Assembly (NCBI GenBank): GCA_012960465.1
Contig: DUBF01000109.1
Location: forward strand, 1 to 33,737
Reading direction: 5' to 3'
From: Rhodospirillales bacterium
GTDB lineage: Bacteria > Pseudomonadota > Alphaproteobacteria > Rhodospirillales > UBA2165
Length of the DNA stretch: 33,737 bases
Shown: in pieces, positions 1,211 through 33,737 of the stretch
Layout of the letters: the number at the start of each line of letters is the position of its first letter
Position numbering within the stretch: the first letter of the stretch is position 1
Notes under the pieces: generated by a model
Told to the model about the DNA's origin: nothing
Database searches by the model: none
What the model saw: only the letters and a program-made list of their open reading frames with translations
Program-made: the position numbers and the translations under genes

Positions 1211-1942
1211 TTAGCTGGTATCTAATTCTGGATAATGCCTGAAGACGCCCATTGTATTAAAAGGGATACGACGATCTGAAGCCAGGTATACGGCAGTATT
1301 TGGACGTACTGTAATTGCATCTCTAAGAGCTAGGGCTTTTGGATATTTTTTGTTAATTTTGCTGAAGGCTTTTGGAAATGCATATTGGAGGCCTTCTATA
1401 ATTTGGAATAAAGATAAGTCTGGATAAGTCATCTTGTCGCCAATTAACCAGCCGGAATTTGATTTATTATTGGTTAAAATTTTCTCAAAATAGTCCATAT
1501 ATTTGGGGATGCGAAGTTCTATAAAATTTGCCGAGCGTTTTTTTGCTTCTTCTACTTGGTCTTCATAATAGAGAGCGCTTGCGAGCGGGTGATGAGTATC
1601 GTGTACTTCCATTAGAAAATCGGTCACAGTCAGTTGAATTTGGTGTGCAAATATTTTTTCCGTCTCTTCATTTCCAATGAGGTTAATTTTTGGCGCTAAG
1701 TATTGTAATATGGCTGCAGCCTGGGCAATCATCACGCCATTATCTAGCAGGAATGGTGGGGCGAATGGCGGGCGTTCAAGATCAGGGTCCTGAAGGATAG
1801 CCAGGATCGCGGCCCGATTATCTTCCTGTTTTTCGTCTGATCTGGCTACATCGACGTAGTCTACACCGGCCTCCTCAAGCGCGAGACGAACGACCTCTCC
1901 CCGTCCTTGAATCATCGGCCAGTAGTAGAATTCGTAGGGCAT
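1211..1942 (-). CDS. Glutathione S-transferase family protein
   Basis: A 243-residue two-domain GST: a thioredoxin-like N-terminal domain (about 1-85) and an all-helical C-terminal domain. The start region FYYWPMIQGRGEVVRLAL has the Tyr and the GR-E pattern of sigma/alpha-like GSTs, and the glutathione-site segment APPFLLDNGVMIAQAAAI carries the cis-Pro and the family Gln-Ala pair in place of the usual Glu-Ser. The ATG at 1942-1940 overlaps the stop of the peroxiredoxin gene by one base (TGATG), so the two are almost certainly translationally coupled. An in-frame TTG one codon upstream (1945) is less likely. The coupling suggests a role in supplying glutathione to the peroxiredoxin; this is inferred, not shown by the sequence. 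Confidence 0.88.
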   Translation of the reverse strand: MPYEFYYWPMIQGRGEVVRLALEEAGVDYVDVARSDEKQEDNRAAILAILQDPDLERPPFAPPFLLDNGVMIAQAAAILQYLAPKINLIGNEETEKIFAHQIQLTVTDFLMEVHDTHHPLASALYYEDQVEEAKKRSANFIELRIPKYMDYFEKILTNNKSNSGWLIGDKMTYPDLSLFQIIEGLQYAFPKAFSKINKKYPKALALRDAITVRPNTAVYLASDRRIPFNTMGVFRHYPELDTS

Positions 1943-2388
1943 CAATCCAGACTAGCTAAATCAGCTAGCACTTCGTCGGCGTGCTCTGCTGGAGTAACAG
2001 TGTCGTAAGTTTTCGCAATTGTACCATCCGGCGCAATCAGTACTGACACTCTGTTTGCTTTGCCCGTATCAGAAGTTGCTACTCCAAAGGTAGTCGAGGC
2101 TGACTTATCGTTGTCGGTTAATAAGTCAAATGGAAATTCAAACTTGTCTTTAAATGCTTTATTATCTGAATTCTTATCAAAGCTCACGCCTAAAATAACA
2201 CAGTTTTTATTTTTGAAGTCTTGGATTCTATCACGGAACCCGTTTCCTTCGATGGTTCAGCCAGGGGTATCAGCTTTTGGATACCACCACATTAGTACGT
2301 ATTTTCCCGAAAAATCATCAAGTGCTACATTTGCGCCATCTTGATTTGTAAACGAGAATTTTGGTGCTTGTTCTCCAATTTTTATCAT
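1942..2388 (-). CDS. Selenocysteine-containing peroxiredoxin (BCP/PrxQ type), UGA at residue 44
   Basis: Reading from the ATG at 2388 (AGAG ribosome site 5' of it) gives a 148-residue peroxiredoxin of normal BCP/PrxQ length if the in-frame TGA at 2259-2257 is read through. The TGA sits at residue 44 in ...YPKADTPG-U-TIEGNGFRD, exactly where the family has its peroxidatic Cys (TPGCT). Both sides of the codon are well-conserved peroxiredoxin, including GVSFD and FPFDLLTD further on. A conventional gene call would truncate it to the 81 residues from 2187 and lose the catalytic centre. The +5 resolving Cys of E. coli-type BCP is absent (Asn49); the only Cys is Cys63. It would therefore act as a 1-Sec peroxiredoxin needing an external thiol, and the next gene is a GST overlapping the stop. 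Sec-containing peroxiredoxins are a known family in marine bacteria. Alternatives are a TGC-to-TGA sequencing error or a recent nonsense mutation. Confidence 0.82.
2230..2259 (-). promoter_or_regulatory. UGA codon with bacterial SECIS-like hairpin
   Basis: Directly after the in-frame TGA (2259-2257) the minus strand can form ACGG-GTT-CCGT: 5' arm 2243-2240, three-base loop 2239-2237, 3' arm 2236-2233. A short lower ATC/GAT pairing (2253-2251 with 2232-2230) is possible across an asymmetric internal loop. The apical loop begins 17 nt after the TGA and its first base is G. Known bacterial SECIS elements have a small apical loop with a G in its first two bases, roughly 16-37 nt from the UGA. The stem is short, so the hairpin alone would not be proof. 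Confidence 0.55.
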
Positions 2389-31724: not shown

Positions 31725-32412
31725 ATGAAAAAGGTTGGGCTGCAATGGATTTCCAAGCTTTGGAAACGCGCCCTGAAAATTATCCATATCCATCCGAGTT
31801 TTGGATTGGCAGGCGTATTTTTGTGTGGCGTGCTGGCTTGGCGCCTTCAATTGGAGTCTGGAAATCACCAACACTTAAAGTTTCTGCGTCTCCTGCCACG
31901 AAATGCGCGAAAACGTTTTCAAAGAATACAAATTGACCATTCATTATTCCAACACAACAGGCGTGCGCGCCACCTGCCCGGATTGTCATGTGCCTCGGGA
32001 ATGGGCGCACAAATTGACGCGAAAAATCCGGGCTACCAACGATTTATTTCATTGGGCAGTGAGATCAATCGATACAAAAGAAAAATTCGAAGCAAAACGC
32101 CACAGCCTCGCCCGGCAAGTTTGGGCAATGATGAAGTCCAACAATTCTCAGGAATGCCGAAACTACCATGATATTGATTCAATGAAAACATCGGAACAAA
32201 CAGAAAAGCCGAGACCGTTTCACGAACTCACGGTGGTTTGGAAAATGACTTGTATCGACTGCCACAAAGGTATTGCCCACAAACTTCCCAAAGAATTCGA
32301 CAAAGAGATCACCATGGACCAACTGCACGACAGGTTGGAGAAGGAAAAAGTTAATTGTGAAAGCTGTCACTTAAATATGGCTAGACCAAAATCAAACAAT
32401 GGTTGGGATTAA
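31725..32412 (+). pseudogene. napC: NapC/NirT-type multihaem cytochrome c, disrupted by three lesions
   Basis: Membrane-anchored quinol-oxidising cytochrome that feeds periplasmic reductases. Translation starts at ATG 31725 (AGGAAC before it) with the N-terminal membrane helix (FGLAGVFLCGVLAW). At about 31840 the homologous frame shifts by +1 to GAFNWSLEITNT; there TAA (31876-31878) stands where the family has Glu (TNTE-FC), and SFCVSCHEM follows. The rest runs to 32412. Haem motifs are CVSCH, CPDCH, CIDCH and CESCH; the third motif is CRNYH (32155-32169), one base from CRNCH. A frameshift, a nonsense codon and a lost haem Cys together suggest a pseudogene; an error-prone assembly is the alternative. 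A restart at the internal ATG 31903 would lack the anchor and first haem. Confidence 0.85.
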
Positions 32413-32442
32413 ATGACCGGGATAAAAGAAAAGGAAAGACCG

Positions 32443-33114
32443 ATGAATGTTCAAAACATATTTTTATTTGGCTTTGTAGCATTACTGATTTCGGCTTTTA
32501 GTTTGCCGACTTACGGGCAAAAATCATCCGCGGCAATCAAGAAAGGTAAGGCGCTCTATAAAGAGAATTGCCTGGTATGCCATCAGGCTGATGCCATTGG
32601 AAAGCCGGGTGTAGCCCCTTCCCTTACAAATCCGGAATTTCTAAGTACTGCCTCGAATAAGTTCATCGAAGGCACCATTCGCGACGGCCGGGAAGATACC
32701 AGCATGATGCCCTTTGCCCATTTGGGCCGATCAAAGGTCCGCGCCATCGTCGCTTATTTGAGATCGAATGCGAAATCACCCCATCGCTCACAGGAAATAG
32801 ACGGTCAGCCCGACGCCATCGGCGATGTCGCACTCGGCCAAACCTGGTACATGAACATTTGTTCCACCTGTCATGGAAGTGCGGGAAATGGATATGAATC
32901 CGAGGGCGCTGGCACAGCAATCGGATTGCCGGGATTTCTCGACAAGGCGTCAGACGGATTTATTCGCGAGACCATAAAAAAAGGCCGCTCGAACACACGC
33001 ATGTTGCCCTTCCAAGGTCCCGAAGGCCTCGCCAATTTATCCGACCATCAAATCGACGACATTATCACTTACCTGAGAGAACAGCTCAAAACGAAAGTGG
33101 AGAAACAGCCATGA
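32443..33114 (+). CDS. Dihaem c-type cytochrome, periplasmic
   Basis: A 223-residue exported protein: signal peptide about 1-25 (ending LPTYGQ), then two class I cytochrome c domains. Haem sites are CLVCH (Cys43, Cys46, His47) and CSTCH (Cys140, Cys143, His144). Each domain has a likely Met axial ligand in a matching segment (DTSMMPF and NTRMLPF), and FIEGTIRDGRED and FIRETIKKGRSN show the domains are an internal duplication. It should carry electrons to the molybdoenzyme encoded next, whose ATG overlaps its stop (ATGA). ATG 32443 has AAGGAAAG; an in-frame ATG at 32413 lacks a site. Confidence 0.92.
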   Translation: MNVQNIFLFGFVALLISAFSLPTYGQKSSAAIKKGKALYKENCLVCHQADAIGKPGVAPSLTNPEFLSTASNKFIEGTIRDGREDTSMMPFAHLGRSKVRAIVAYLRSNAKSPHRSQEIDGQPDAIGDVALGQTWYMNICSTCHGSAGNGYESEGAGTAIGLPGFLDKASDGFIRETIKKGRSNTRMLPFQGPEGLANLSDHQIDDIITYLREQLKTKVEKQP

Positions 33115-33737
33115 AACGTATCAAAAACAAATTCTCACGCCGTGATTTCATGAAAAACAGCGCCTTCATTTCGGCATCTGCTGCGGGCGCTGGATTGATG
33201 GTCGGCAATAATCCGGAACTTGTCGCCTCGCCCGCCAATGCGCAGGTGAGCGAAGACGATCGCACGACTGCAATTGCCCAATGCCCCTATTGCGGGGTTG
33301 GCTGTGGCACCATTATTCAGGTGGAAAAAGGTAAAATCGTTTCGATGCGACCAGATAAAGACCACCCAACAAATTATGGACTACAATGCATCAAAGGCCT
33401 AACCGCTGCAGAACCCATGTATGTCGACCGAATGGAAGGCGATCCCTATGTCCGTAAAGACGTCTGGGCAGAATGGAAAAAACCGGGTCACGGCAATCTT
33501 GATTATATCAGCAAAACCAAGGGATCCTTTGACGAGGAACACTTCATCCGAATTCCATATGAACAAGCTTCGGAAATGGTCGATCACAAAATAGCCCATT
33601 TCGCTAAAAAGTGTGGCGGCAATTCAATAGGGCTCTACGGATCGGGCCAGCTGACGATGGAAGGCCAGTATCTCGACATCTTCTTCGAAACCGAGGTTTC
33701 CATCACCGTAGATCAGTACCTCGACATGATCGAGCGG
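33111..33737 (+). CDS. Molybdopterin oxidoreductase, Nap/Nas-like, N-terminal part (runs off window)
   Basis: The first 209 residues of a Tat-exported molybdoenzyme. MKRIKNKFSRRDFMKN is a twin-arginine signal with cleavage near SPANA-Q (about 44). Cys58-x2-Cys61-x3-Cys65-x27-Cys93 (CPYCGVGC...GLQCIKGL) binds the [4Fe-4S] cluster seen in periplasmic nitrate reductase and relatives. GLYGSGQLTMEGQYL (about 175-189) is the conserved strand before the Mo-ligand region, which is outside the window. After it, the usual Nap/Nas run toward N-ARHCM is replaced by DIFFETEVSITVDQYLDMIE. Nitrate reductase is the leading guess; other Nap-like reductases remain possible. No napB- or napD-like gene is seen. 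Confidence 0.8.
   Translation, partial: MKRIKNKFSRRDFMKNSAFISASAAGAGLMVGNNPELVASPANAQVSEDDRTTAIAQCPYCGVGCGTIIQVEKGKIVSMRPDKDHPTNYGLQCIKGLTAAEPMYVDRMEGDPYVRKDVWAEWKKPGHGNLDYISKTKGSFDEEHFIRIPYEQASEMVDHKIAHFAKKCGGNSIGLYGSGQLTMEGQYLDIFFETEVSITVDQYLDMIER

Follow-up and report, generated by a model that had tools for sequence, protein, structure and literature searches.

The window, which is the whole stretch of 33,737 nucleotides analyzed here (contig DUBF01000109.1, C109 below, of the Rhodospirillales assembly GCA_012960465.1), carries on its minus strand a frame of 148 codons (2388-1945) for a peroxiredoxin of the BCP/PrxQ type, with an in-frame TGA at codon 44 (2259-2257). With this TGA read as selenocysteine (Sec, U), the translation of 1942-2388 is MIKIGEQAPKF...YPKADTPGUTIEGNGFRDR...LASLD. 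The frame holds two TGA codons, that at codon 44 and the terminal stop (1944-1942), the last base of which doubles as the A of the start codon (ATG) of the next gene on the minus strand. This gene (1211-1942, starting at ATG 1942) encodes a glutathione S-transferase (GST) of 243 aa, with matches to the C-terminal and N-terminal GST domains (PF14497, 104.8 bits; PF02798, 26.0 bits). The purine-rich GGAAGAG found directly upstream of ATG 2388 is consistent with the use of this codon as the start of the peroxiredoxin gene. Further upstream (2440-2813), about 370 bases between a transporter gene and the peroxiredoxin gene contain no listed ORF and resemble, by eye, a decayed coding stretch.

When the standard code was applied (table 11, ORFs of at least 60 aa), the same frame yielded only an 81-aa C-terminal ORF from GTG 2187, so that a gene caller stopping at the TGA would drop the N-terminal half, as had been predicted by the sequence-only reading of this DNA. 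Annotation without a Sec model would truncate such genes in general. That reading had also proposed a full-length BCP-type frame from ATG 2388, interrupted solely by the TGA at 2259-2257, and the domain search bore it out: the AhpC-TSA profile (PF00578) matched over positions 1-123 of 124 with 108.3 bits (gathering score 26). The best NCBIfam model was NF006960 (PRK09437, BCP thiol peroxidase) with 118.0 bits, and since this is below its curated cut-off of 140, the protein is named here BCP/PrxQ-like and is not assigned to that equivalog. The AlphaFold2 model of the protein had a mean pLDDT of 95.5 and its nearest solved fold was that of Sulfolobus Bcp1 (3drn, TM 0.92), which was also the best solved relative by sequence.

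The active site of the predicted protein comprises the motif P37xxxT41xxU44 and Arg113. The segment T41-P-G-U44 aligned with the peroxidatic Cys of the 11 Cys-containing proteins in an alignment of 36 (25 with TGA and 11 with Cys), which places the TGA exactly where the earlier reading had put it, at the peroxidatic Cys of a TPGCT motif. Residues P37, R113, and H136 were invariant in all 36 proteins, and position 41 was Thr in 34 of them, the two exceptions having GGGU in place of TPGU. GGGU proteins, in which Thr41 is lost, form a divergent subgroup of Sec-peroxiredoxins (L036, L104 and L059:5564-5998), and the L059 copy sits just after a normal TPGU copy.

The codon used at the peroxidatic site was then compared in 42 distinct copies and homologs, and only TGA (25), TGC (15), and TGT (2) were found; all 17 Cys homologs thus had TGC or TGT. 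The 25 TGA copies, the window included, resulted from merging 33 TGA rows. As the terms "TGA copies" and "Cys homologs" sort the proteins by the codon itself, the informative count is that within the clade of the window protein, where 25 of the 27 distinct copies had TGA and two had TGC (L034 and L035); one more clade member read later (L104) also had TGA, which brings the count to 26 against 2. Among the matches listed, besides six congeneric species, TGA copies occurred in additional genera of the same family and order and in metagenome-assembled genomes (MAGs) labelled SAR324, Acidimicrobiia, and Gemmatimonadetes. No copy of the peroxiredoxin was present among the matches listed for two further species of the genus, whose genomes are 57% (G002) and 68% (G008) complete.

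When the window gene was compared with its counterparts in the six congeneric species, pN was 0.08-0.19 in codons 1-43, before the TGA, and 0.13-0.23 in codons 59-147, after it, with pS values of 0.53-1.03. These rates indicate purifying selection on both halves of the gene and synonymous sites close to saturation. They bear on the notion that the TGA stands for a Cys codon that was lost to a nonsense mutation, in a pseudogene, or to a sequencing error. TGA is indeed one base away from TGC and the assembly is fragmented (245 contigs); nevertheless, the same TGA recurs in separately named MAGs from the six congeneric species and from other genera, it has been kept despite near-saturated synonymous change, and selection after it is equal in kind to that before it. 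Such a pattern would not be expected of a dead or mis-sequenced gene, and we consider such an origin of the TGA exceedingly improbable. The same data address the possibility that the TGA is a true stop and that re-initiation at GTG 2187 yields the C-terminal part. Although the 81-aa ORF from this codon exists, its product would lack the catalytic motif, and the 43 codons before the TGA, which contain P37 and T41, are conserved; in addition, the TGA-containing peroxiredoxin is associated with selB (see below). The chance that re-initiation accounts for the locus is therefore, in our judgment, vanishingly small.

A putative bacterial SECIS element was found downstream of the TGA. Its upper hairpin (2241-2223, minus strand) consists of a 6-bp stem (2241-2236/2228-2223) closed by the loop CGUGAUA (2235-2229), and the minimum free energy (MFE) structure adds a lower 4-bp helix (2250-2247/2218-2215), the whole putative element spanning 2250-2215. 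Folding of the 48 nt from the UGA gave an MFE of -9.4 kcal/mol, with the loop beginning 21 nt after the UGA and having G and then U at its positions 2-3. The bacterial consensus given in the available text of PMC13188914 consists of a loop of 3-9 nt carrying a G at position 1 or 2, an upper stem of 4-16 bp, a distance from UGA to loop of 16-37 nt and an MFE of at most -7.5 kcal/mol. The window hairpin agrees with these four constraints (loop of 7 nt with a G within the first two positions, stem of 6 bp, 21 nt, -9.4 kcal/mol). Its stability alone was unremarkable when compared with shuffled sequences (z -0.70, 47 of 200 as good). Across the copies, 93.6% of the cells were paired, against at most 63.2% when the structure was slid along the alignment. 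Helix 2 was paired in 96.7% of its cells, with two pairs changed on both sides, whereas the lower helix was paired in 89%, with no pair changed on both sides. This covariation is thin, as only 3 of 250 cells, from two pairs, were changed on both sides, and 29 of 500 shuffles reached two such pairs.

Codon choice provided better evidence for a SECIS than hairpin stability, as judged from the aligned genes. Every one of the 25 TGA copies encoded the Arg at +8 by CGT, a codon that none of the 17 Cys homologs had there, and the TGA copies mostly had GGG at +6 (20 of 25) and CAA at +12 (21 of 25). Furthermore, pS in codons 45-58 was 0.35 in L019-L022, against 0.72-1.03 in the remainder of the gene in the same four copies, a comparison that covers 14 codons only; in L024 and L023 it was 0.48 and 0.72, respectively. 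In two other copies (L061 and L062) the loop was kept with another stem sequence, seemingly shifted by one base when inspected by eye. A SECIS covariance model was also run on the whole genome with E up to 5, and among the 150 of 1445 candidates scored it matched only the peroxiredoxin gene. This model is dominated by peroxiredoxin sequence and, having matched only that gene, missed the other selenoprotein candidates described below.

The earlier reading implied that the organism decodes UGA as Sec, and the genome search found the full set of genes for this. The scores of selA (610.9 bits), selB (452.6 bits), and selD (404.7 bits) were all above the NCBIfam cut-offs, and a tRNA-Sec was found at C123:6803-6893 with 77.5 bits (RF01852 cut-off, 47), which ARAGORN called tRNA-SeC with the anticodon TCA. 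In a control of 14 named genomes, the tRNA-Sec cut-off was passed by five, so that this cut-off is not specific, whereas selB and selD were each found in two. The genes selB and selA overlap (C123:15335-18657). The 97-kb contig of the window also carries selD (C109:49904-50986), which itself bears an active-site TGA, in HGGGUGCK. In this genome the tRNA-Sec gene is outside selB, unlike the nested arrangement, with tRNA-Sec inside selB, that the accessible part of PMC8124441 describes for several alphaproteobacterial orders.

The assembly, in 245 contigs, is 98.78% complete with a contamination of 2.91%, and it is by binning that the contig carrying selA, selB, and tRNA-Sec (C123) is assigned to the same organism. 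Bin contamination was considered as an origin of the machinery; it is possible for C123, but the TGA-bearing selD shares the 97-kb contig of the peroxiredoxin.

Decoding of the UGA as Cys or Trp, through a changed code or a near-cognate tRNA, would fit the Cys found at the same site in the homologs. This explanation is nevertheless highly improbable, given that a TGA still terminates the very same gene, overlapping the next start, that tRNA-Sec (TCA), selA, selB, and selD are present, and that a SECIS-like hairpin follows the TGA. Taken together, the gene is almost certainly a real Sec-peroxiredoxin gene of the BCP/PrxQ type, with Sec decoded at UGA 2259-2257 by way of SelB and the hairpin, and we infer the insertion of Sec at codon 44 from the sequence data presented.

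According to the mechanism proposed, SelA, SelD, and tRNA-Sec would make Sec-tRNA-Sec, and SelB would deliver this tRNA to the ribosome at UGA 2259-2257 through binding to the hairpin, the loop of which begins 21 nt downstream, whereas the second UGA (1944-1942) would terminate translation. By analogy with the family, the Sec selenolate would attack the O-O bond of the peroxide, aided by Pro37, Thr41, and Arg113, to give a selenenic acid. An outside thiol would then restore the selenolate, because the usual PrxQ resolving positions lack Cys; candidates for this less certain step are thioredoxin, glutaredoxin, and glutathione, the last perhaps delivered by the GST encoded next to the peroxiredoxin.

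The link between the TGA-containing peroxiredoxin and the Sec machinery was examined in 120 genomes. Among the matches listed, selB was above the cut-off in 15 of the 20 genomes with a TGA peroxiredoxin and in 10 of the 100 others (Fisher p 7e-9, a value that ignores relatedness). The TGA genomes numbered 17 at first (12 with selB) and 20 after the addition of four more TPGU rows in three new genomes; the selB matches of G003 and G013 are pieces. The five TGA genomes without selB above the cut-off were G006, G007, G012, G016, and G017. Of these, G007 and G016 had a tRNA-Sec of 73.5 and 79.4 bits, respectively, and a 90-position piece of selB was present in G017, whereas G006 (88% complete) and G012 (85%) had neither selB above the cut-off nor a clear tRNA-Sec. 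Conversely, selB was present in G003 and G014 with no tRNA-Sec above the cut-off. In all, a clear tRNA-Sec (more than 70 bits) was found in 6 of the 11 TGA genomes searched, those lacking it (G003, G006, G012, G014, and G017) being draft genomes that are 80-92% complete.

The two Cys copies of the clade (L034 and L035, from G009 and G019 of genus g2) nested within the Sec clade in the trees of both 36 and 42 proteins, in which the starred branches forced a minimum of two and three state changes, respectively. With other BCPs taken as the outside, these copies read as one apparent change from Sec to Cys. No selB above the cut-off was found in G009 (100% complete) or G019 (90%), and their RF01852 matches (47.6 and 47.1 bits) barely exceeded the cut-off (47), while six other genomes scored 73-79 bits. 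The apparent reversion to Cys hence coincides with the lack of a detectable selB. Both L034 and L035 have C83, three residues from the resolving place of XcPrxQ, so that they may represent a conversion from Sec to a 2-Cys enzyme. Additionally, TPGUT copies occurred among the conventional BCPs of the same bacterial family (L098-L101, in G013 and in G018, G022, and G023 of genus g11), that of G013 keeping a Cys at +5; by sequence, these indicate a second, separate gain of Sec among the conventional BCPs.

The recycling of the enzyme was considered in the light of its Cys residues and of the GST gene. A Cys at +5 (position 49) was found in none of the 25 Sec proteins and in 6 of the 11 Cys proteins. 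Position 80, which aligns with residue 84 of XcPrxQ, was occupied by K, R, S, Q, or A and had no Cys in any of the 36 proteins. We take residue 84 to be the resolving Cys of XcPrxQ, whose structure titles name C48S and C84S mutants. Besides U44, the only residue of this kind in the window protein is C63, which is present in 13 of the 25 Sec proteins, including all seven of the genus. In the model, the helices downstream of U44 lead into a strand that starts with C63, which is thus probably far from U44, so that a resolving role appears unlikely. The lack of Cys at the usual PrxQ resolving positions, together with the placement of C63, makes a 1-Sec catalytic cycle likely.

Of the 25 distinct TGA copies, 9 have a GST gene downstream on the same strand, namely those of all seven species of the genus in which the peroxiredoxin gene was found, the window included, and of two other genera (G014 and G016). 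This GST gene overlaps the peroxiredoxin stop in four of them (the window, G004, G006, and G007), and in G003 and G005 (L019 and L021) an extra gene lies between the two. The intervening gene of G005 (L050) matched the AhpD-like, peroxidase-related family TIGR01926 with 93.2 bits (cut-off, 81.8) and had no Pfam match. No GST was found near the other 16 TGA copies, in flanks that reached no more than 1.5 kb or 5 kb to either side and were sometimes shorter. The glutathione synthetase gene gshB is present in the genome (407.4 bits).

The text available for PMC6316032 describes mammalian Prdx6 as an enzyme without a resolving Cys that uses GSH and pi-GST, and on this precedent a GST-assisted glutathione cycle is proposed here, the adjacent GST suggesting a glutathione-dependent 1-Sec cycle. 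The lack of Cys at +5 and at position 80, the GST on the same strand in all seven species of the genus with the gene, and the presence of gshB all fit a 1-Sec peroxidase for which glutathione, aided by the adjacent GST, would be the reductant. However, the DNA flanking 16 of the 25 copies has no GST (many of these flanks being of 1.5 kb and some shorter), C63 could act as a resolving residue in the 13 Sec proteins that have it, and gene adjacency does not prove a joint reaction. We regard glutathione recycling of this kind as possible, if somewhat on the improbable side. The alternative is an ordinary Sec peroxiredoxin recycled by thioredoxin or glutaredoxin, the GST neighbor being merely co-regulated. 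PrxQ enzymes are typically thioredoxin-dependent and NF006960 is named as a thioredoxin-dependent thiol peroxidase, but this sits less well with the lack of Cys at the usual resolving positions and with the steady linkage to GST within the genus; on balance, ordinary recycling is the function to which we lean slightly. A bolder version of the glutathione proposal would make the overlapping pair, in this selenoprotein-rich marine lineage of Alphaproteobacteria, a dedicated glutathione peroxidase, with the Sec intermediate receiving its glutathione from GST, as a selenium-based bacterial counterpart of Prdx6/pi-GST. We consider it rather unlikely; if true, the Cys-reverted relatives in the same family would reveal the benefit of pairing Sec with GST. 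In either form, the proposal offers a testable idea on how 1-Sec peroxiredoxins are recycled.

The peroxiredoxin is one of at least 10 candidate selenoproteins of this genome, SelD (L072, C109:49904-50986, GGGUGCK) included, each with a TGA at a redox motif. The other candidates are Prx-like (UxxC), thioredoxin-like (UxxC), SelW-like (CxxU), and deiodinase-like (TUPPF) proteins, three CMD/AhpD-like proteins (CxxU) and one PrdB/GrdB-like protein (UxxC); their loci are on contigs C69, C11, C235, C92, C98, and C164 (L077, L083, L087, L080, L091, L093, and L094). Two of the CMD/AhpD-like genes and the PrdB/GrdB-like gene are grouped on C164. A published limit for a "selenoprotein-rich" genome is six, as stated in the accessible part of PMC5029168. 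The older picture for Alphaproteobacteria was one of FdhA only: a 2006 study (PMC1794560, as far as its text was available) gave FdhA as the sole selenoprotein of the Sec-decoding members, and three were listed for one alphaproteobacterium, Afipia carboxidovorans, in the available portion of a 2025 paper (PMC12013277). In the literature covered, which was partial, neither a selenoprotein-rich member of the class nor a pairing of Sec peroxiredoxin and GST was found to be reported, so that this negative is weak. A GST-like selenoprotein family is already in print, according to the partial sources; a search for the UGSC selenoprotein family gave no match, nor did its control.

A molybdopterin oxidoreductase gene starting at 33111 was considered as a candidate Sec formate dehydrogenase and discarded, because its N-terminal piece matched NapA best (87.5 bits) and, when it was read by eye past the N gap near 33737, it had a Cys and no TGA before its end. 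The region concerned (31903-33737, continued in L067) encodes a NapC-like cytochrome (PF03264, 165.2 bits), a cytochrome c, and this NapA-like molybdopterin oxidoreductase, cut by the N gap, and is followed in L067 by ferredoxin-like genes that by eye resemble NapG/NapH.

Compared with known systems, the window protein shares with the BCP/PrxQ enzymes (NF006960; Bcp1, 3drn; XcPrxQ, 5iiz) a model score of 118 bits, a TM of 0.92 to 3drn and the same active-site residues, and it differs from them in scoring below the cut-off of 140, in having Sec for Cys and in lacking Cys at +5 and at the XcPrxQ resolving place. PrxU (NF040737), the Sec enzyme of Eubacterium acidaminophilum, belongs to the same peroxiredoxin superfamily, but the score of 55.1 bits is far below the cut-off of its model (270). 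Prdx6 is a member of a different Prx subfamily and has Cys in place of Sec, and the GST of the bacterium is known so far just as a gene neighbor. What the present pair would share with Prdx6/pi-GST is the proposed logic, in which there is no resolving residue and GSH and GST complete the cycle (PMC6316032, as described in its available text).

The closest counterparts are the marine Sec peroxiredoxins (TxxU, COG1225/PF00578), which have the same fold family, the same TxxU motif and a UGA at the peroxidatic site. The sequence-only reading rightly treated this family as already known: "Peroxiredoxin (Prx), COG1225 (Bcp), TxxU" appears as a prokaryotic selenoprotein family in the accessible part of PMC9312934, and the partial texts of two surveys report 43 Sec peroxiredoxin genes in the Sargasso Sea set (PMC1088965) and 253 in GOS, where the selenoprotein genes reported as neighbors of Prx were SelW and Prx-like 2 (PMC2398784). 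As far as these ocean metagenome surveys could be consulted, Sec peroxiredoxin is among their most abundant selenoprotein families. Known since the Sargasso Sea survey, the family gains here a member and not a new kind. Beyond the metagenomic genes, the window gene stands in a near-complete genome, with the Sec machinery and a GST neighbor, and through this genome part of the marine selenoproteome can be ascribed to a definite organism.
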